From: a virus
Strand: one strand, 5' to 3'
Virus record (IMG/VR): IMGVR_UViG_3300010885_014015
Span: 1 to 23,684 of that record
DNA: 23,684 bases
A model generated the notes under the pieces. The model made no database searches and was not told where the DNA came from. It saw nothing but the letters and a program-made list of their open reading frames with translations. A program made the position numbers and the translations under genes. Positions 885-18,841 of this stretch are shown here, in pieces. Every line of letters begins with the position of its first letter. Position 1 is the first letter of the stretch.

Positions 885-1323
885 TCAAGATGAACCTAAT
901 AGTGTAGGTAGACCAACTGAATATAAAGAATTATTCAATGAGCAAGTCTTTGAGATGGCACTTCTTGGTCTATCAGATGTTCAGATGTCTAACATCTTAG
1001 GAGTTTCAGAAGTAACATTCAATGCTTGGAAACACAAACACCCAGAATTTCTTAAGTCATTAATGCGTGGAAAGGAAGATGCAGATGGCAAAGTAGCAAA
1101 AGCAATGTACAAGAGAGCATTGGGTTTGACTATCATTGAAGAAGCATTGACTAAAGATGGTCAGATAGTTCAACTCAGAAAAGAACTGCCACCTGATACA
1201 CCTGCTGCAAAACATTGGTTAGCAAACAGACAAAGAAAACTTTGGGCAAATAATGGAGAGACTACATTCAACACTACAGAACCATTGATAATAATCAGAA
1301 CAGAAGGCAAAGATGAAGAATGA
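877..1323 (+). CDS. terminase small subunit
   Basis: A 148-residue protein with the layout of small terminase subunits. It has a Gly-Arg-Pro entry (GRPTEY), then a helix-turn-helix at about residues 30-55 (LGLSDVQMSNILGVSEVTFN, then W) that would bind the packaging site. The central helical part (KAMYKRALG) is followed by a conserved end (PPDTPAAKHWLANRQRKLW). The large subunit starts in an ATGA overlap with its stop at 1320-1323, the usual pairing. It recognises phage DNA and hands it to the motor protein. The family assignment rests on the HTH, the AAKHWLANR-x-x-x-W signature and the neighbour. Confidence 0.88.
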   Translation: MNSQDEPNSVGRPTEYKELFNEQVFEMALLGLSDVQMSNILGVSEVTFNAWKHKHPEFLKSLMRGKEDADGKVAKAMYKRALGLTIIEEALTKDGQIVQLRKELPPDTPAAKHWLANRQRKLWANNGETTFNTTEPLIIIRTEGKDEE

Positions 1324-2600
1324 AGTTCACACTAACTAAGAGACAAACTACTGCATATGACTTAGCAATTAATAATGTTAAGAAAGTCATTGTCTTTGGT
1401 GGTGCAATTCGTGGTGGTAAGACATATTGGTTGCTGCTCACACTCTCATCACTCTGTTTATTATATCCACGTTCTAGATGGGTCATCATTCGTAAAACAT
1501 TACCCGATTTAAAGAGAACAACATTTCCATCATTCAGTTCAATACTCAATGATGGTTTGATTAATTATATCAAGTCATGGAACAGAGAGACTAATGTAGT
1601 GACATTCACAAATGGAAGTGAATTAATATTCATGGCAGAATCATATGATGATGACAAAGACTTAAACAGATTCAGAGGACTTGAAGTCAATGGAGCAGGA
1701 CTTGATGAAGTCAATGAACTACAAGAAGCAACATTCTACAAAGTTCAAGAACGTATTGGCTCATGGAACAAAGCAGAAGGAAAACCACCAATTGTATGTC
1801 TTGCTACTTGCAATCCTGCTAACAACTGGGTCAAGAGTGTTATCTATGAGAGATGGAGAAACAATACTTTACCTGAGAAATGGTCATACATCAATTCAAG
1901 AATAACAGATAATCCATACATAAGTCAAGACTATTTGGAATCACTCAAAGAGTTACCACCTATTCAGTATGCACGATTTGTTGAAGGTGATTGGGACGTT
2001 ATTGATGATGTATCAAACCCATTCTTGTATGCATGGAATGATGACAAGCATATAGATGATTCACTTGTATTGAATAAGAATCTACCTGTGTTCATCTCAG
2101 TTGACTTTAACATCAATCCATTATCTGCATTAGTTATTCAGCAGCAATCATCTAAAAGTTGTTTTGTGATTGATGAGATTAACATAGACAAAGGTAGTAT
2201 TGATGCATTCTGTGACTATGTAGAAAGATTAGATGTACCTCGTGGATTGTTACGTATCACAGGAGATGCAATGGGCAATGGTCGAAGCATTCAACAAAGA
2301 GACAATTCTAGTGCATACACGCAAATCAAAAGAAGATTGAATCTTGCAGATAGTCAGATAATCATACCTGCTAATCCAACACACTACAATAGCAGAATAG
2401 ACTGCAACAATGCACTATCTAGACTTGACATAAGAGTTAATTCAGTTCGATGCAAAGGATTTATCTATGATGCTAAACAAGTGCAGTGCAACTCTGATGG
2501 TGGAATTATTAAGAGCAATAGAAAGAATTTATCAGAACGTGCAGATTTCTTGGATTGTTTCCGTTATTTTGTGAATGCAATCTTAAAACGATATATATGA
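1320..2600 (+). CDS. terL: terminase large subunit (packaging ATPase/nuclease)
   Basis: A 426-residue packaging motor. The N-terminal ATPase shows a Walker A motif GGAIRGGKT (27-35), a Walker B with catalytic acid at G-LDE (D129, E130) and a coupling motif LATCNP (161-166). The C-terminal RNase H-like nuclease has its first acid in SVDFNI (D262), the second in ITGDAMGN (D316) and a third in ADFLDCFRYF (D409 or D412). Length and motif order are normal for TerL, and nothing is missing. It pumps DNA through the portal, although here the portal gene lies about 10 kb downstream and is separated from terminase by the tail genes. The start overlaps the small subunit stop. Confidence 0.96.
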   Translation: MKFTLTKRQTTAYDLAINNVKKVIVFGGAIRGGKTYWLLLTLSSLCLLYPRSRWVIIRKTLPDLKRTTFPSFSSILNDGLINYIKSWNRETNVVTFTNGSELIFMAESYDDDKDLNRFRGLEVNGAGLDEVNELQEATFYKVQERIGSWNKAEGKPPIVCLATCNPANNWVKSVIYERWRNNTLPEKWSYINSRITDNPYISQDYLESLKELPPIQYARFVEGDWDVIDDVSNPFLYAWNDDKHIDDSLVLNKNLPVFISVDFNINPLSALVIQQQSSKSCFVIDEINIDKGSIDAFCDYVERLDVPRGLLRITGDAMGNGRSIQQRDNSSAYTQIKRRLNLADSQIIIPANPTHYNSRIDCNNALSRLDIRVNSVRCKGFIYDAKQVQCNSDGGIIKSNRKNLSERADFLDCFRYFVNAILKRYI

Positions 2601-3147: not shown

Positions 3148-3408
3148 ATGGCAAACTTCATCATCTTACAATCTACTTTGATAGAATACAATAAGAACAT
3201 TGAAGATTTTGAACTGCAAGAACTAGCATCAGTTGATTTAGGTGATTGCAAAGTCTTAATCAATGTCAATGAGATAATGATGGTAGTAGAGAATCAAGGA
3301 ACTACATTAGTAACAATGACCAACTTAGATAGATTGGTCAGCAACAACAACATAGATGAAGTTATTCAGAAAATTAATGCCTCACAGGTGGTTGCATCTA
3401 TTCAATAG
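3148..3408 (+). CDS. hypothetical protein, 86 aa, FlbD-like fold suspected
   Basis: An 86-residue acidic protein. Its core, roughly residues 34-78 (KVLINVNEIMMVVE, then TLVTMTNLD, then V-x-x-x-IDEVIQKI), has the layout of small FlbD-like or LytTR-like beta proteins: I-N-x-x-x-I followed by a strand, a Thr-rich strand and a C-terminal helix. Similar short proteins are common beside tail genes of Bacteroidota phages. No catalytic or metal motif is seen. The next gene starts inside its 3' end, so the two are likely coupled. Fold resemblance is by eye and function is unknown. Confidence 0.65.
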   Translation: MANFIILQSTLIEYNKNIEDFELQELASVDLGDCKVLINVNEIMMVVENQGTTLVTMTNLDRLVSNNNIDEVIQKINASQVVASIQ

Positions 3409-4006
3409 ATGGAATAAGAATCAATCTAATTACAATCTAGTTAATGTATTCACACATGATGGATACAACTATCTCAGATATCCAAAAGAGACAAATATGC
3501 CTCTTGAAAGATTCTCAATGTCAATGTCATTACTTGAAAGATTGAGCAGTGGTATAAGTGGTTCTGAAATGGAAATGATTCTTGAATCAATGGAAAAAGC
3601 ATTGAGTGCAGGTCTATCAAATCCAAAGAATGCAGCACTAATTGCTACATACATTCATATAATTAGAGAGAGACAAGACACAATCATTCATAGAGACATC
3701 TTGCTCAACATTGCTGCAACATGGATTATAAGAGATGATGAAGACCCGCATATTATCAACAATGACATTCACAAACAAAAATTAGAAGTATTTGAAAAGA
3801 TGTGCATGGAGGGTCCACACGATTTTTTTACACTTTTGGGTATAGAGCCGCTAGTACCCTTAATGTCTATGTCTCAAGAAGATTTCAAGAAATTATGGGA
3901 ACACAATCTAGAGCAGCAGAAAAACTTAATCAAAGCATTGACCCAATTAGATTCTCACCAAGATTCAGAGCGAGTGAAACGACCACGAGAATTAAAACTC
4001 AAGTGA
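3356..4006 (+). CDS. tail assembly chaperone, gpG-like (unshifted product)
   Basis: A largely helical 216-residue protein encoded immediately upstream of the tape measure, where tailed phages carry the tail assembly chaperone. The pattern near residues 30-60 (FTHDGYNYLRYPKETNMPLE followed by R) resembles other Bacteroidota phage proteins at this place. The start could be the ATG at 3356 or, seven residues later, the ATG at 3377; both overlap the previous gene. The tail of the frame (about 3890-4003) uses codons rare in this genome (CGA three times, consecutive CAG), as expected if the alternative frame is the more constrained one. A -1 frameshift at 3823-3829 would divert some ribosomes to a longer product. 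The chaperone assignment comes from position plus frameshift signal, not sequence similarity. Confidence 0.7.
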   Translation: MKLFRKLMPHRWLHLFNRWNKNQSNYNLVNVFTHDGYNYLRYPKETNMPLERFSMSMSLLERLSSGISGSEMEMILESMEKALSAGLSNPKNAALIATYIHIIRERQDTIIHRDILLNIAATWIIRDDEDPHIINNDIHKQKLEVFEKMCMEGPHDFFTLLGIEPLVPLMSMSQEDFKKLWEHNLEQQKNLIKALTQLDSHQDSERVKRPRELKLK

Positions 4007-7126: not shown

Positions 7127-9078
7127 ATATAAGATTCATCATTGATGGTGAAGATAGAGGACAACCAATCAATGGAGATGAGTTTGGATTCACTATTGGA
7201 GAAGATACTACAATCAATTCTAGAATTGTATCATTCAACAATGATTTAACATTTGTTGGAGGAGTTTATGATTACATCTACACTAATTTAATTGATACAG
7301 GTGGTTGTTCTCTTATCAAAGTAGAAGTTCAATATCTATGCTCAAGAACATGGAAAAGATTAACAAATGGATATATAGTTATAAGTGAATGTGTATTTGA
7401 TTTAGATAGATGCAGTGTAACTACTAAATTGTATGATGACTCTTTCTCAACTAAGATTAATAATAATAAGAGCATTCCATTTCCTTTAAATACTACTTTC
7501 ACAAAGAATCTTTTAACTCTAGTGCCACCAACAATTAGAAAGGTGATGCTATATAATCCAACAAGTTCAGCATATGGATATCCATGTTATGGTGTATCTA
7601 TCTATGATGCATTCAAACATCTTGTTGGGTGTATGTCAGATAACTTAGTTGACTTTGATAGCAACTACTTTGCATTTGACTTTGCTAATGATGGTAATTT
7701 TGACTTAGTCACTAATGGTTTATCAATCATAAATGAAACTCAAGACCCATCAGTTGTATCATTTGAGAATTTATTTACTGCACTCAATAAAAAATTGAGA
7801 CTTGGTATGGTAATTGAAACACAATCAAATCAAAGACCATTGCTCAGAATTGAACCTGCAACATATTTCAATCAACAAGGTGTGTCAGTTAATTTATACA
7901 ATCAACCCGATATTAAATTGAAATATGATACTGCTGCTCAATATGCATCTATCAACTTTGGCTCATCACCATATCTTGAGCAACATGAATGTAATAATGG
8001 AGAAACTGCTTGTGCATTCTTTCAAAGTTCATTCAAAGGATTTAAAGATGAGACATTTGGACTTATTGGAGAATGCAACACATCAAACATATTAAGTCTA
8101 AGAAGTGATAATATTATCTTTGATACAAATGTGATTGAAGATACATATGAGCATAACAATGAGAATTATAATAATGATACTTTTGTTATTCAATCATATT
8201 GGTTTGTTGGTGAAAATCAAGGATATGCAAGACAATTTGACCCATATGGTACGGGACAAACGGTCTACAATGGAGACTACACTAATGATAATGTTGCTTA
8301 CAATTGGTTAGGTGGTTATCCAAACGGAATTTATTCATACATACAAGGATTTAATCCAGGAAGCACACAAGTACAAGCAACTAGCAATGCAAGTCCATTG
8401 CAAGAGTGGGGCATCAGTGATGTTATGACATCATATTATCTTTCAACATTTAGACCATACTTAGCATTTGGAAATGAAATAATAGACCCAAGCAATAACT
8501 TTGACGGAACTACTTATGTAATACCTTATACAGGTACATATACATTCTCAACTACAATCATTGTTAATGGTGCTTATGAAGCATATGCTCAGTTTGTACG
8601 TTCAGAAGCAGATGGTACATTAATAAATACTTGGAATGAATTTCCATATGCAATAACTGACCCTATAACAAATATTGTTGTTTGTCAATTGACTTGGGAA
8701 GTTGTATGTAATGAAGGAGACTTGATAAACATCAATGTATTTGCTAGAGTTGATACAGATTATCCACCAATTAATGTGACAATAGATAATACATATGATA
8801 TCTATACAACTCAATTTGATGCAATCGGTGAACCATTTCCAAATGTATTGCAACCTGTAGACCCAAATTCAATATTGAGATTGATATATAGTTTTGATAG
8901 ACCATTGTCAATGTCTGAAATAGAAATAATTCTAGACAATACATCAAAACCTATCACATTTGGCAGATTAAATGACCCATTAAGAGTCATTGAAGGATAT
9001 ATAAAAAAGATAGATGTTAAGAGCATCATTGAACAAGAAGCATCATTTGAATTAAAATCTAAAAAGATACTACGATGA
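7117..9078 (+). CDS. tail tip / baseplate hub-like structural protein
   Basis: A 653-residue protein starting 10 nt inside the tape measure 3' end. The first 250 residues resemble tail tip or hub proteins of Bacteroidota phages: an N-terminal beta domain (FIIDGEDRGQPINGDEFGF), a segment with VSIYDAFKHLVGCMSD, then SFENLFTALNKKLRLGMVIE and LRIEPATYF. The central part is Asn/Tyr-rich beta structure (YGTGQTVYNGDYTNDNVAYN). The C-terminal end (about 600-650) has ITFGRLNDPLRVIEGYIKKI. The place right after the tape measure is where distal tail and hub genes sit. No enzymatic motif is evident. The call is from context and overall pattern, not a search. Confidence 0.65.
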   Translation: MAVDIRFIIDGEDRGQPINGDEFGFTIGEDTTINSRIVSFNNDLTFVGGVYDYIYTNLIDTGGCSLIKVEVQYLCSRTWKRLTNGYIVISECVFDLDRCSVTTKLYDDSFSTKINNNKSIPFPLNTTFTKNLLTLVPPTIRKVMLYNPTSSAYGYPCYGVSIYDAFKHLVGCMSDNLVDFDSNYFAFDFANDGNFDLVTNGLSIINETQDPSVVSFENLFTALNKKLRLGMVIETQSNQRPLLRIEPATYFNQQGVSVNLYNQPDIKLKYDTAAQYASINFGSSPYLEQHECNNGETACAFFQSSFKGFKDETFGLIGECNTSNILSLRSDNIIFDTNVIEDTYEHNNENYNNDTFVIQSYWFVGENQGYARQFDPYGTGQTVYNGDYTNDNVAYNWLGGYPNGIYSYIQGFNPGSTQVQATSNASPLQEWGISDVMTSYYLSTFRPYLAFGNEIIDPSNNFDGTTYVIPYTGTYTFSTTIIVNGAYEAYAQFVRSEADGTLINTWNEFPYAITDPITNIVVCQLTWEVVCNEGDLININVFARVDTDYPPINVTIDNTYDIYTTQFDAIGEPFPNVLQPVDPNSILRLIYSFDRPLSMSEIEIILDNTSKPITFGRLNDPLRVIEGYIKKIDVKSIIEQEASFELKSKKILR

Positions 9079-10730
9079 GTTTTATATCAATACCAAATCA
9101 ACCAATATTATTTCATTCACAAGATGAAATATTGACACCTTGTGAAGAGTGCGGTGAATCAAACTATAAGCAGTTAATAGATTTTAATGATAAAGTGTTT
9201 TTTCAATTAGAATCAACTGCTTGTACTCAATACAATATGAAACCATATGATTCATCTATAGATGGATGGATTAACACTGATGGTAATATATGTGGAGATG
9301 GTTCTATTGGTTCATATGCTCAATATTTATACATTGACTATGCATATGAATTATATTCAATCACTTTCACAATTTTATCATTTGAAGAAGGTACATTGAA
9401 TATTCAGATGGGTGGAAGCACTGACTATGATATAACACTAGCAGGTACATACACTTTCTATTTTAACAATGTAGACACAAATGATAATTCATATGTAATT
9501 TTATTACTTCAATCAAGTAACTTCAAAGGATGCTTTGATTCAGATAGCATCAAGGTAAAAGGTATTGCATCTAAAAATGAGATTAAAATTGGCATTGTTG
9601 ATGCTATCACATTAGAGCAGTATGATGTAATTGTTCCAAATTACACAATCATTGAAAATAAAATAATAGGTTCATTTGATTTTACTAATGTAGATGTTAG
9701 TGAAGGTTGTTATCGTTTATCATTAGCAGATTTCTGTGAGAATACTTGCAGTCAGTTCAGAGTTTTAAATAATTTATTCAATCTTCAATTTGGCAATACA
9801 TATGGATGGACTGCTGGTGGTAATAATGGAGTTGTGACATTCACTCAGAACAATACATTTTTTGATGTTGGTATTGAAGAATCAGATGCATATATTAAGA
9901 GCATTTCAAGTGCTTGTACTGGCAAATACTACTATGTTTCATTATTTGTTGAGAGTCGTGCAAATGCAGAGATAAGAGTTACAATTGGAGAAAATGAAGC
10001 AATATTTCCATCAGGAACTGGATATATAACTGCTGCATTATTTGCAGGAAATCCTAATTTATTTGGAACTCAAATAACTATATTAGTAAATCAAGCAGGA
10101 CTTGGTGGTGGTTATGTGAATATCAGTAGAATAGAGATATCAATTGATGACAATTGGATTCAATGGAATAAATACTCTGATGTGTTTGATTTAGGAGATT
10201 ATAATGATTCATGTAAATACTTCAAGATAGAAGGTTGCAATGCTCAAGAGCAGTTCAATCTAGCATTCAATGGTAATGATTTTATGCCAATGATAAGACT
10301 AGAAGGCAAGAGAGCAAAACCACAATATGTTACTAATGCAAATGCATTCAGATATTCATCAGGAAAATGGAATGCAAACTATGTGAATAGATTAAAACAA
10401 TGGACATACTATTTTGGTAGATTACCTGAGTATGTACTTGATTTCTTATCTACTATATTCTACTATGACAATTGTTATGTCAACAAAGTATTGATGTTTC
10501 CACAAGACAATGCATTTCCAACAATTGACTATTCAGATGCAGATACATATCTTGGTTCATTTGCTATTGATTTAATTGAGAAAGAAAATAAAGTAGTTAA
10601 AGTACAATGTTCAGATTCAAATGCAACTTGTTTACCATCTGAAATTGATATAGATGAACCATTCTTATTGACACAAGATGATATCATAATCACTACAGAA
10701 GATGCAGTCAATTTGTATTATGAAAATTAA
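9075..10730 (+). CDS. tail fibre-like structural protein
   Basis: A 551-residue acidic beta-rich protein, ATGA-coupled to the hub-like gene. It starts with a short Cys pair (PCEECGESNY). Two stretches of about 130 residues (roughly 45-165 and 225-355) look like jelly-roll modules, as in carbohydrate-binding or virion spike domains. A conserved part near 410-460 (MIRLEGKRAKPQY, then YSSGKW, then LPEYVLDFLSTIFYYD) recurs in tail fibre or tip proteins of Bacteroidota phages. The C terminus ends in an alternating hydrophobic/acidic run (FLLTQDDIIITTEDAV). Probably a tip or fibre component contacting host glycans; the exact role is inferred. Confidence 0.6.
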   Translation: MSFISIPNQPILFHSQDEILTPCEECGESNYKQLIDFNDKVFFQLESTACTQYNMKPYDSSIDGWINTDGNICGDGSIGSYAQYLYIDYAYELYSITFTILSFEEGTLNIQMGGSTDYDITLAGTYTFYFNNVDTNDNSYVILLLQSSNFKGCFDSDSIKVKGIASKNEIKIGIVDAITLEQYDVIVPNYTIIENKIIGSFDFTNVDVSEGCYRLSLADFCENTCSQFRVLNNLFNLQFGNTYGWTAGGNNGVVTFTQNNTFFDVGIEESDAYIKSISSACTGKYYYVSLFVESRANAEIRVTIGENEAIFPSGTGYITAALFAGNPNLFGTQITILVNQAGLGGGYVNISRIEISIDDNWIQWNKYSDVFDLGDYNDSCKYFKIEGCNAQEQFNLAFNGNDFMPMIRLEGKRAKPQYVTNANAFRYSSGKWNANYVNRLKQWTYYFGRLPEYVLDFLSTIFYYDNCYVNKVLMFPQDNAFPTIDYSDADTYLGSFAIDLIEKENKVVKVQCSDSNATCLPSEIDIDEPFLLTQDDIIITTEDAVNLYYEN

Positions 10731-13014: not shown

Positions 13015-14928
13015 ATGGCACTCTCTATAGAAGAGATTAATAAGATAGTCAATAAGTTTATCTACAAGCATAAAGCATTTGATAATGATAAGTCAAAGTC
13101 ATTAGTAAATCCTATATCAAAACGTAGAATTGGAATGCATCAATATCCTGAATATTGGGATGGTTATAATTTCTCTGCAATGATGTATGATAGTATCTTA
13201 CCTCATGCTAGAGCAGATGTATATCCTGAGCATTTACTATCTGTTAGAAGTCCAAATCAAACAGAAGCACAATATGAATACATCAAGGCGAACTACAAAG
13301 CAACAACTCTAAATGTATTTGAAGATTTCAAAGCAACTATATCTAGAGCATTTGCAGACCAAAACTGGTCAATAAATGTAAAACCCGAAAAAGATGAAAG
13401 ATTTGGTGAAGATACATTCAGCAGATTTATCAATGAAGAGATAGAGAAATTTGGAAGTGTAGAAGCATTTGTGAAGTCAATGCTACCAACATTGAAGTTG
13501 ATTGACCCTAATGGAATAATTGCAATTGAACCAGAAGATTTCGACATTGAAGAACCAATGATGGAAGGTGAGCAAGTCTTGATGAGCAACAATCTTATCA
13601 AACCAATGCCATCATATTACAATTGCATGAGAATCGTAGGTCAAGAATACGGCAGATGGTACTTAGTTATTGATGAAGACAAATCTCATGTCAAAGTTGG
13701 TAGCAAAACAGAAGAGAGTGGAATCATACTTGAATTGTTTGATGATACATACATTTATCGTATTGAGCAGATAGGTAAAAAATCTGATGTGACATTTGCT
13801 GAACCAGTTGTATATTTTCAACATGATTTAGGATATGTACCATGTAGAAAATTAATGGGTACACCTTTACTAGTCAACAATGAATTAGTATTTCAATCTC
13901 CATTTATCACTGCAGTTCCATTGCTTGACCAAGTTGTACTAGATGAAAGTTATCTACAGATGAGTAAAGCAACAAGTGCATTTCCATTCATGGTTGCATT
14001 AGGTGAGATTTGTGAGTTTGTAGACAAAGAAGGAAACAGATGTGATAATGGTCAGATATTTGATTCAATAGGTGGTGGATATCGCACTTGTGGTAGTTGT
14101 AGTGGTGCAGGAGTTAAGAGTCGTTTTTCACCAACAGGAATGTTGTTAGTAAAACCAAAGACATCTTTAAGTGAAGGAGATTCTGGATTGAGCGGTGAAT
14201 ACATGAAATTTGTTTCACCACCAATGGATACATTACAATTCTTAAGAACTGAGATTAACACTCAGATGGATAAGTCAAGAAGTGTATTGCATCTACCATC
14301 AAGTGATGCAACAGGAACTATTGGAGAAGCATCAACTGCAACTGGGTCATTAAACAAAATGAGAGCATTATATGCGTTTGTTAAACCAATCTCAGACCAA
14401 CTTTTTGGAATGTATGAGTTCATGCTTAACACTATTGGTCAAATGCGTTATGGAGAATACTTTGGCGGTGTTACTCTTGTATATCCAACTTCATTTGATA
14501 TCTCAACTCCAAGTGATTATCTTGCAGTTATATCAGAAGGTATTGCAGCAGGTGTACCACCAGCAGTGACATATGCAAACGTATACAACTATATCAAGGC
14601 AATCAATTATACAGATGATGAGAGTGCTGCAATTTATGAACTTATAATGAGTGCAGATGAACTCTTATTGATGGGTCAAGCAGATATAGTTGCACGACTT
14701 GGATTAGGTACTATTGAGAAATGGCAAGATGTATTACATCAATCTGCACCTCAACTAGTAATGGAATTGATACGTAATTTTGTACCAAATGCAGAATATG
14801 ATAACTTCTTAGAACAAACAATGCAAGAGCAGATTGTTCAACTACGTGAAGCAGCAGTATCTAAGGTGCGTGAAGTATTAGACCCGATTCAATTAGCACA
14901 ACAAAATCTATTGAGTGGCATCGTTTGA
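13015..14928 (+). CDS. portal protein
   Basis: A 637-residue protein of portal size, directly followed by a MuF-like gene as in many phages. Features are an N-terminal segment with YPEYWDGYNFSAMMYDSILP, a mixed wing/stem region, and the C-terminal helical part LHLPSSDATGTIGEASTATG followed by long helices (residues 420-480), which is typical of portal stem and crown. A metal-site-like insertion lies at about 330-365, with C333, C343, C359 and C362 (CGSCSGAG), similar to a zinc ribbon. The ring of portals would form the DNA channel and the docking site for terminase. The assignment rests on size, position and general pattern. Confidence 0.8.
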   Translation: MALSIEEINKIVNKFIYKHKAFDNDKSKSLVNPISKRRIGMHQYPEYWDGYNFSAMMYDSILPHARADVYPEHLLSVRSPNQTEAQYEYIKANYKATTLNVFEDFKATISRAFADQNWSINVKPEKDERFGEDTFSRFINEEIEKFGSVEAFVKSMLPTLKLIDPNGIIAIEPEDFDIEEPMMEGEQVLMSNNLIKPMPSYYNCMRIVGQEYGRWYLVIDEDKSHVKVGSKTEESGIILELFDDTYIYRIEQIGKKSDVTFAEPVVYFQHDLGYVPCRKLMGTPLLVNNELVFQSPFITAVPLLDQVVLDESYLQMSKATSAFPFMVALGEICEFVDKEGNRCDNGQIFDSIGGGYRTCGSCSGAGVKSRFSPTGMLLVKPKTSLSEGDSGLSGEYMKFVSPPMDTLQFLRTEINTQMDKSRSVLHLPSSDATGTIGEASTATGSLNKMRALYAFVKPISDQLFGMYEFMLNTIGQMRYGEYFGGVTLVYPTSFDISTPSDYLAVISEGIAAGVPPAVTYANVYNYIKAINYTDDESAAIYELIMSADELLLMGQADIVARLGLGTIEKWQDVLHQSAPQLVMELIRNFVPNAEYDNFLEQTMQEQIVQLREAAVSKVREVLDPIQLAQQNLLSGIV

Positions 14929-17348: not shown

Positions 17349-17392
17349 GTTTAGTTTTATGCGAAGTTTAACTAAATAATGTTTGATTGATG

Positions 17393-17422
17393 AAAGAGCA
17401 GCAGAAATGTTGCTCTTTTTTT
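17393..17422 (+). terminator. rho-independent terminator after the scaffold gene
   Basis: AAAGAGCAGC (17393-17402) pairs with GTTGCTCTTT (17409-17418), 10 bp with one G-T pair, loop AGAAAT. The T tract runs from 17416 to 17422. It ends the scaffold transcript about 70 bases after the stop codon and isolates the capsid gene. Confidence 0.88.
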
Positions 17423-17569: not shown

Positions 17570-17577
17570 TAGATTTG
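17570..17577 (+). promoter_or_regulatory. capsid gene promoter (-7 element)
   Basis: TAGATTTG matches TAnnTTTG exactly. The region before it is very AT-rich (AATATTTAAAAAATATTTG), but no TTG sits at the normal distance, so either the promoter needs an activator or the -33 box is degenerate. It would give the capsid mRNA a leader of about 105 bases. Confidence 0.5.
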
Positions 17578-17684: not shown

Positions 17685-18728
17685 ATGTCAATTTCCCGTA
17701 TACTATCAGAATGTCCAAACATTCAAGCCCCACTTGGTCAACTCTTCATTGAAGTTGGTCAGCGTGAATCTTTACCTTTCTTAGAGTATTTGAACTCTCC
17801 TGAAAATGTAAAAATGATTAAAATGCAAGTATCTCCCGGAGGTGGTAAATTGCGTACCGTTGAAGCACGATGGGTGCAAAGACTTCCTGAATCAGAAGTT
17901 CTTGCTGCTGCAGATATCATGAATTGTACTGCTACAAACATCTATGGTGATTCAACAACTACATACACACTTGAAACTACAGATACATATCAAGCATCTC
18001 AGTTAATCTCTGGTGCAGATATTGCTAGACATTGTCAAGATAACAATGTATACTTCTTAGAGTCTGTAATGCGTTTGATGGATGTAATTGACCGCAAAAT
18101 TGCTAGTGTTGCTGCTGCTCAAGCAGTTGGTGCAATCGGTAATTGGGGTACAGATGTAGAAGATTTCTTCCCGATGAATGGTGATTGTTTAGAAGTTAAG
18201 ACAATCGGTGATGCAGGAGAAGTTAACCCATTTGCACTTGCTGACATCACTCAAGCAACTACAATGGCAAACTATCCATCTGCTCCAATTGCTTTTGGTG
18301 GTGCTGCTATGCAGAGATATGCTAATGCAGTTAAAGCAGGATGCTGCTCAATGAGTGGTATTGATTTATTAGCAATTTCTCAACAAAATGGTTTTGGATT
18401 TGCTTATGATTCTCGTGTTGCTGCTGCATTTGAAGACCAAACTCATGCATTGGTTACTACTGCTGGTGCTATTCAGTGGTTGTCTTACAACTTAGCAGAA
18501 TGGAACTCAAACTTCACTCCATCTGTTGGTAATGGTTATGCACGTACAATTGCATTCACTCCTGCAGGTGTACCTGTTGACTTGACTCTTAAAGATGACT
18601 GCGGAAATCTTTCTGTTATCGTAACTGCAACAGGTAAGATTGTTACATTGCCTACAGATATCTATGAGGCAGGTGATAAATTATCAGGTGTTAACTACGT
18701 GAATTGTGTTTCAATTGTAAACCCGTAG
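17685..18728 (+). CDS. major capsid protein
   Basis: A 347-residue protein following scaffold, with its own promoter and terminator. It begins MSISRILSECPNIQAPLGQL. Helical and beta segments such as FLESVMRLMDVIDRKIASVA and PFALADITQATTMANYPSAP fit an HK97-type capsid subunit as seen in Bacteroidota phages, though no single motif proves it. Codon use is strongly shifted toward GCT, CGT, CTT and C-ending codons compared with neighbours, as for the most abundant virion protein. The stop TAG (18726-18728) lies directly after a slippery heptamer, so a fraction of ribosomes may continue in the -1 frame. Confidence 0.85.
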   Translation: MSISRILSECPNIQAPLGQLFIEVGQRESLPFLEYLNSPENVKMIKMQVSPGGGKLRTVEARWVQRLPESEVLAAADIMNCTATNIYGDSTTTYTLETTDTYQASQLISGADIARHCQDNNVYFLESVMRLMDVIDRKIASVAAAQAVGAIGNWGTDVEDFFPMNGDCLEVKTIGDAGEVNPFALADITQATTMANYPSAPIAFGGAAMQRYANAVKAGCCSMSGIDLLAISQQNGFGFAYDSRVAAAFEDQTHALVTTAGAIQWLSYNLAEWNSNFTPSVGNGYARTIAFTPAGVPVDLTLKDDCGNLSVIVTATGKIVTLPTDIYEAGDKLSGVNYVNCVSIVNP

Positions 18729-18805
18729 CCGACCCGCAATTTCTACTGAGTGAAAATTTAGATGAGTTGCTGGGTCAAAATGGTGATAATTTACTATCAG
18801 AATAA
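17685..18805 (+). CDS. frameshift-extended capsid protein (-1 PRF product)
   Basis: A slip of one base back on A AAC CCG (18719-18725) would carry ribosomes past the TAG and add 26 residues, VADPQFLLSENLDELL then GQNGDNLLSE, ending at TAA 18803-18805, for 373 residues in total. The added segment has an 8-residue repeat (LLSENLDE, LLGQNGDN, LLSE) of a type known from ends of phage structural proteins, so it reads as real protein and not as chance. Its stop lies 6 bases before the terminator stem. T7 makes capsid proteins 10A and 10B by the same logic. The minor form could carry a surface appendage. Confidence 0.75.
18719..18776 (+). promoter_or_regulatory. -1 programmed frameshift site at the capsid stop codon
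   Basis: The heptamer A AAC CCG (18719-18725) is in register with the capsid frame (GTA AAC CCG TAG). After a 5-nt spacer (TAGCC), GACCC (18731-18735) pairs with GGGTC (18772-18776) and GCAA (18736-18739) with TTGC (18767-18770); T18771 is bulged and the loop is 27 nt. After the slip the two codons would re-pair on AAA and CCC. Confidence 0.75.
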
Positions 18806-18811
18806 ATTGAG

Positions 18812-18841
18812 GGGAAGGTGTTTAATGCCTTCCCTTTTTTT
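18812..18841 (+). terminator. strong rho-independent terminator after the capsid gene
   Basis: GGGAAGG (18812-18818) pairs with CCTTCCC (18828-18834), extendable by two wobble pairs, and is followed by seven T (18835-18841). It closes a monocistronic capsid transcript. The next gene at 18865 has only a partial -7 match (TAACTTTA, 18843-18850) and may depend on readthrough. Confidence 0.9.

Follow-up and report, generated by a model that had tools for sequence, protein, structure and literature searches.

Probable -1 frameshifting at the terminal proline codon of a likely major capsid gene in a group of uncultured phages

The likely major capsid gene of an uncultured phage, known from the 23.7-kb virus record IMGVR_UViG_3300010885_014015 of IMG/VR (the whole stretch of 23,684 nucleotides is called the window below), ends in a stop codon beyond which the -1 frame stays open for a further short stretch. 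This raises the question of whether that frame is translated as an addition to the capsid protein and, if so, how ribosomes would reach it. The preliminary description of the locus had proposed that a -1 frameshift lengthens the capsid protein by 26 residues, from 347 to 373 aa, and this is the explanation that best fits the evidence set out here. The features concerned are listed in Table 1.

Table 1. Positions in the window of the features discussed in the text
Feature	Position	Strand	Basis or remark
Terminase large subunit	1320-2600		Pfam Terminase_6N
C-terminus FLLTQDDIIITTEDAVNLYYEN of a 551-aa protein (gene 9075-10730)	10662..10727	+	8-residue acidic repeat, encoded in frame
Portal	13015-14928		phrog_7376
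MuF-like gene and coiled-coil scaffold-like gene	between portal and capsid gene		named by eye, from sequence and position
Promoter motif TAnnTTTG, TAGATTTG	17570..17577	+	upstream of capsid gene
Major capsid protein gene (likely); 0-frame product 347 aa ending ...SIVNP	17685..18728	+	fold search, gene order
Slip site A AAC CCG (putative)	18719..18725	+	core CCC[G/A] kept in relatives with extension
-1-frame extension, 26 codons VADPQFLLSENLDELLGQNGDNLLSE and stop TAA (18803-18805)	18725..18805	+	translation, coding selection
0-frame stop TAG	18726..18728	+	directly 3' of slip codon
RNA hairpin, putative stimulator	18731..18776	+	folding, covariation
Hairpin outer helix	18731-18735/18772-18776 and 18736-18742/18764-18770	+	one bulged base
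Hairpin inner helix	18746-18751/18756-18761	+	6 bp
GAAA loop	18752-18755	+	closes inner helix
Intrinsic terminator	18809..18837	+	directly after -1-frame extension; stem found by scan

The identity of the extended gene was considered from its predicted fold and its position. An AlphaFold model of the capsid, built from 67 relatives and of low confidence (mean pLDDT 47.7), has as its best PDB matches the capsids of XM1, Kp7, P2/P4 and Sf11 together with encapsulins (E 2e-4 to 1e-3), and its best named matches in BFVD are major capsid proteins; an earlier model (45 sequences, pLDDT 40) gave fold matches that were meaningless. The gene is preceded, in order, by those for the portal, a MuF-like protein and a scaffold-like protein. 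By sequence, the capsid showed no profile match and no Pfam or PHROG family, no match by tblastn among 50,697 named phage records and none in a search of genome contigs. Since the fold matches of the low-confidence model and the gene order agree, the product is likely to be an HK97-like major capsid protein, as had been assumed when the locus was described.

The last codons of the capsid gene read GTA AAC CCG TAG; one base back, the same letters read AAA CCC GTA GCC GAC and so on to GAA TAA. Both the A AAC CCG heptamer directly before the TAG and the spacer of 5 nt between the end of the heptamer and a stem, on which the original proposal was founded, are present. Of the proline codons in the genes of the window only 4% are CCG, and of the asparagine codons 25% are AAC. 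The proposal had further been staked on related phages keeping the heptamer, the stem and an open -1 frame. Searches of IMG/VR gave, with that of the window itself, a set of 157 distinct capsid-gene ends: 119 have a -1-frame extension of 25-28 codons, 5 have one in frame after a UGA, 32 have none and one is too short to judge. The heptamer is found in 113 of the 119, and the stem, which covaries, is described below.

Comparison of the 119 narrows down what is conserved. CCC[G/A] stands at the same place in every one of them, while the full A AAC CC[G/A] is present in 113; the canonical X_XXY_YYZ heptamer is not universal, as six members lack the AAA and have GTC CCG or GCC CCG before the stop, so that only their proline codon can re-pair. 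The stop adjoins the slip codon in 113/119, being TAA or TAG, never TGA, in these, and stands one codon later in the other six. What is conserved is therefore a proline codon, CCC-R, as a rule with an adjoining stop, rather than the whole X XXY YYZ heptamer. Furthermore, all extension-bearing cases have CCG or CCA as their last proline codon and none has CCT, the commonest proline codon across the capsid bodies; this restriction suggests that the shift would depend on the tRNA-Pro that reads CCG/CCA.

A stop codon in the -1 frame lies upstream of the slip site, which leaves for the shift only the interval between it and the stop of the capsid gene; this interval is 13 nt in 43 relatives and only 7 nt in three (L208-L210). 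These three read GTC CCG TAA (NGT CCC G), where only CCG can re-pair, onto CCC, which would put the event on the proline codon while the stop occupies the A site. That most relatives have the full heptamer suggests that tRNA-Asn may also follow. A point against frameshifting is that third-position mismatches remain with tRNA-Asn on AAA and tRNA-Pro on CCC; to our knowledge, none of the efficient sites described so far is of the X XXY YYZ form with Y = C.

The extension itself is under purifying selection for its amino acids in the -1 frame. In the first set of 47 distinct extensions pN/pS is 0.30 in this frame, compared with 0.72 when the capsid frame is read and 2.43 for the third frame, and the sole length change inside them is of one whole codon. 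Among 75 distinct extension peptides there are 3-7 acidic residues each and almost no basic ones, and the hydrophobic residues recur with a period of 8 (autocorrelation 0.28 at lag 8). The extension is not Ig-like: it has 24-28 residues, which is too short for an Ig domain, shows the 8-residue periodicity and has no Pfam or PHROG match. A tblastn search of named phages with the repeat peptide returned nothing, although BLAST's low-complexity filter may mask such a query. By type, 116 of the 119 extensions are of the LLSE/LLTQ kind and three (L192, L193, L195) carry another 8-residue repeat (LLITKQFQDGFDFQFQSGEDYQFQ).

Downstream of the slip codon the RNA is predicted to fold into a two-tiered hairpin of some 18 bp (-20 kcal/mol, z -4.5; none of 200 shuffles was equally stable), whose outermost GACCC (18731-18735) pairs with GGGTC (18772-18776). 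The bulged stem-loop reported earlier is thus present, but the 9 bp then allotted to it were too few, the structure consisting of a 12-bp outer arm plus the inner helix. In 70 of 71 distinct cases the stem starts 5-6 nt past the slip codon, with a median z of -4.6. When 42 sequences were aligned without gaps, standard pairing was seen in 91% of cells for the five outer pairs, and four of the five vary on both sides (for example CG, GC, AU and GU at one pair); slid controls collapse. Two structural subgroups have 91% and 93% of cells paired over 18 and 19 pairs, respectively. When changes were placed on the capsid tree, pairs 16-19/56-59 (18732-18735 with 18772-18775) showed 21 double compensatory changes versus one breaking change, while the same four pairs with their partners slid gave 0 or 1 double changes. 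Such a structure may well stimulate frameshifting; in phage A2, too, there is RNA structure downstream of the frameshift site.

The three relatives with the differing repeat form a hairpin of their own at about the same place. It was also observed that these three have the same slip site, followed by their differing 8-residue repeat tail (QFQDGFDFQFQSGEDYQFQ), and that the arms of their hairpins differ among the three in a matching way.

Of the 32 relatives without an extension, only L113 and L126 retain the slip site beside the stop. In a few, L044 among them, AAACCCA occurs two codons before that place, and the others are spelled AAT CCT, AAC CCT (with T before it) or AAT CCA, often for the same amino acids. 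The hairpin region is absent from phages that lack the extension, and the terminator is kept. A later scan added 21 further distinct ends, 15 with an extension, one with UGA and five without, in the same pattern; of those five, L328 and L335 keep the slip site. Since L113, L126, L328 and L335 have the heptamer but no extension, the heptamer alone is not proof. The most distant relative, L326 (61% identity), keeps the slip site and all other elements, with the extension KPVTSNTNLLLENGDDLLLQNGDLLIL.

In L103/L105 and L062 the extension region is identical and the capsid bodies only ~81% alike, which suggests that the gene end recombines between capsids. On a tree of 146 capsid genes, from which the last 30 nt were left out, the extension state changed at least 12 times on well-supported branches, a count that is only approximate because such recombination inflates the number of independent events. 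The extension is therefore dispensable, having been gained or lost so often. Of 12 independent pairs in which one member has the extension and the other does not, 10 are concordant for the slip core and none is opposite (p = 0.002), a comparison to which the same caution applies. More than 100 related phages keep slip site, RNA fold and tail together, or lose them together. The invariant CCC[G/A], the covarying stem and the amino-acid selection place the observation well outside what chance would give.

Very probably, then, the major capsid gene undergoes programmed -1 ribosomal frameshifting at its last sense codon. The long hairpin 5-6 nt downstream would hold the ribosome while tRNA-Pro sits in the P site, paired with CCG (or CCA), and a UAG or UAA stop occupies the A site; the tRNA-Pro would re-pair one base back, onto CCC, and tRNA-Asn could follow onto AAA where the full heptamer exists. 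A fraction of the ribosomes would then continue for 25-28 codons in the -1 frame, so that a short capsid protein would be accompanied by a minor form whose C-terminus bears an acidic tail built of 8-residue hydrophobic/turn repeats.

Not all members of the group would reach the tail in this way. In a clade of six distinct members (L010, L011, L012, L016, L018 and L280) the gene ends with GC[ACT] TGA, followed by the same type of tail in frame 0, and the CCC site is gone. The simplest reading is that the UGA is read through in frame and that the mode of recoding has been switched, which would be compatible with frameshifting in the remainder; it is an uncertain one, with the chances about evenly divided. 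The clade keeps a related hairpin, in which an A-U to G-C compensation is seen in L280 (one compensatory pair), and this speaks for readthrough. On the other hand the sequences are few and selection on their tail is weak, with a pN/pS of 0.54 compared to 0.037 in the capsid body, and re-initiation at TGA-ATG/ATA or slow decay could account for the same gene ends.

Re-initiation after the capsid stop could also be invoked for the main group, the downstream frame then being a separate small ORF. A start codon (ATG, GTG or TTG) does lie in the -1 frame upstream of extension codon 6 in 43 of the 119, and L018 of the UGA clade has TGA ATG. However, the remaining 76 have no -1-frame start before extension codon 6, yet their earlier codons are conserved, and re-initiation would leave the invariant CCC[G/A], the fixed distance to the stem and the joint loss of slip site and extension unexplained; it is thus very unlikely. 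Equally improbable is that the function of the hairpin lies in stabilising the mRNA or in ending transcription, with the open -1 frame as a by-product. It is a strong hairpin 5' of a terminator in a gene that seems to be its own transcription unit, but a separate T-tailed terminator follows it, phages that lack both the extension and the hairpin region still have that terminator, and a role in stability would account neither for the invariant slip codon nor for the spacing or the selection on amino acids. That the extension is the untranslated, decaying remnant of an in-frame tail severed by an old single-base deletion agrees with its many losses, which show that it is not essential, but can hardly be credited in view of the purifying selection on the -1 frame, the whole-codon indel and the compensated stem across more than 100 divergent relatives, and of a proline codon choice that decay would not maintain. 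Transcriptional slippage was set aside by reasoning, as the site has no long homopolymer run, and assembly error was excluded by the recurrence of the pattern in many separate contigs.

Returning to frameshifting, the surroundings of the gene give some indication of the host in which it would occur. TAnnTTTG, the -7 promoter motif of Bacteroidota, occurs within the 160 nt that precede the capsid gene in 115 of 139 relatives and 3' of the capsid terminator in 144 of 155; it is short, with 20 plus-strand sites in the whole window versus 12 expected. Its presence on both sides of the capsid gene suggests that the host is probably a member of the Bacteroidota and that the gene is probably a separate transcription unit. 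The -1 frame was initially placed 6 bases short of a terminator; one does follow just after it, but the gap is ~3-5 nt, the stem starting at 18809. A second terminator-like hairpin was noticed 5' of the capsid gene, at 17392-17419, and fits a single-gene transcription unit.

Judged by its portal protein, Croceibacter phage P2559S comes nearest among named phages (29% identity over 22% of the query). Its virion protein gp13 (342 aa) has no such extension, and no sequence similarity between gp13 and the capsid studied here was detectable. Elsewhere in the window, just 5' of the tape-measure gene, ORFs 3148-3408 and 3356-4006 overlap in different frames; they sit where tail assembly chaperones would, and their fusion would need a +1 or -2 shift.

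A tail of the same 8-residue acidic design is borne in frame by the 551-aa protein of Table 1, and the repeat is recognisable in nearly all of 36 orthologous loci (L228-L263), one of which ends at its contig end. The capsid tail therefore looks like a tag that these phages use on more than one protein. By analogy with T7, the tail would be exposed on a minor form in the virion. Its likeliest role, suggested only tentatively and by analogy with T7 10B and with what has been proposed for Ig-like extensions (PMC5009743), would be weak binding through display on the capsid surface.

Capsid-gene frameshifts are known: -1 in T7, T3, A2, A118 and A500, and +1 on a proline codon in PSA (PMC5009743). 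In the open-licence literature searched, there was no report of the present case, nor a description of the C_CCR_UAR plus hairpin class of slip for phage capsid genes. The closest likeness is to T7 gene 10 (10A/10B) and T3, where a -1 shift on the last codons of the gene for the major capsid protein likewise produces a minor, C-terminally extended form, and the analogy to 10A/10B that had been drawn at the outset holds, in that the present case would, by its sequence, work in the same way. The differences are that T7 uses a G_GU-type site (PMC5009743) in Enterobacteria hosts, whereas here C_CCR is followed by a stop, a covarying hairpin lies 5-6 nt downstream, the addition is a 26-aa acidic 8-residue repeat, the host group is another one and the extension has been switched on and off many times. 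Lactobacillus phage A2 and Listeria phages A118 and A500 also make two forms by a -1 shift in the capsid or coat gene; the extension of A2 is Ig-like (PMC5009743), unlike the one described here. In the cps and tsh genes of Listeria phage PSA the shift similarly takes place on a proline codon at the end of a capsid or tail gene, beside a stop or structured RNA (PMC5009743), but there it is +1 and on CCC (CCC_UGA in tsh), while here it would be -1, with CCG/CCA slipping onto CCC. Ig-like extensions of capsid and tail proteins, reached by +1, by -1 or with no frameshift (PMC5009743), are likewise optional C-terminal add-ons whose mode of recoding varies among relatives; here the add-on is a short 8-residue repeat, of a type that a second protein of these phages carries in frame.

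The locus adds an instance of probable capsid recoding, with deep comparative support, from a group of uncultured phages that probably infect Bacteroidota. The extension-less relatives amount to a natural experiment in which, with the tail gone, synonymous changes remove the slip site. A proline codon with an adjoining stop would be a slip site that heptamer-based searches partly miss, and a short repeat tag common to two proteins has a function that can now be tested. It is possible, although somewhat less likely than not, that all of this forms a single scheme: a single tRNA, paired with a proline codon while a stop fills the A site (C_CCR_UAR plus hairpin), would slip by -1 and so add a swappable acidic repeat tag to part of the capsid subunits, the same kind of tag being encoded in frame on another protein, and the capsid tag would repeatedly have been lost, exchanged between capsids or moved behind a read-through UGA. 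The kind of event is already known, from T7 10A/10B and phage A2; what is new is where the ribosome would slip, the acidic 8-residue repeat that follows and its repeated gain or loss in evolution.
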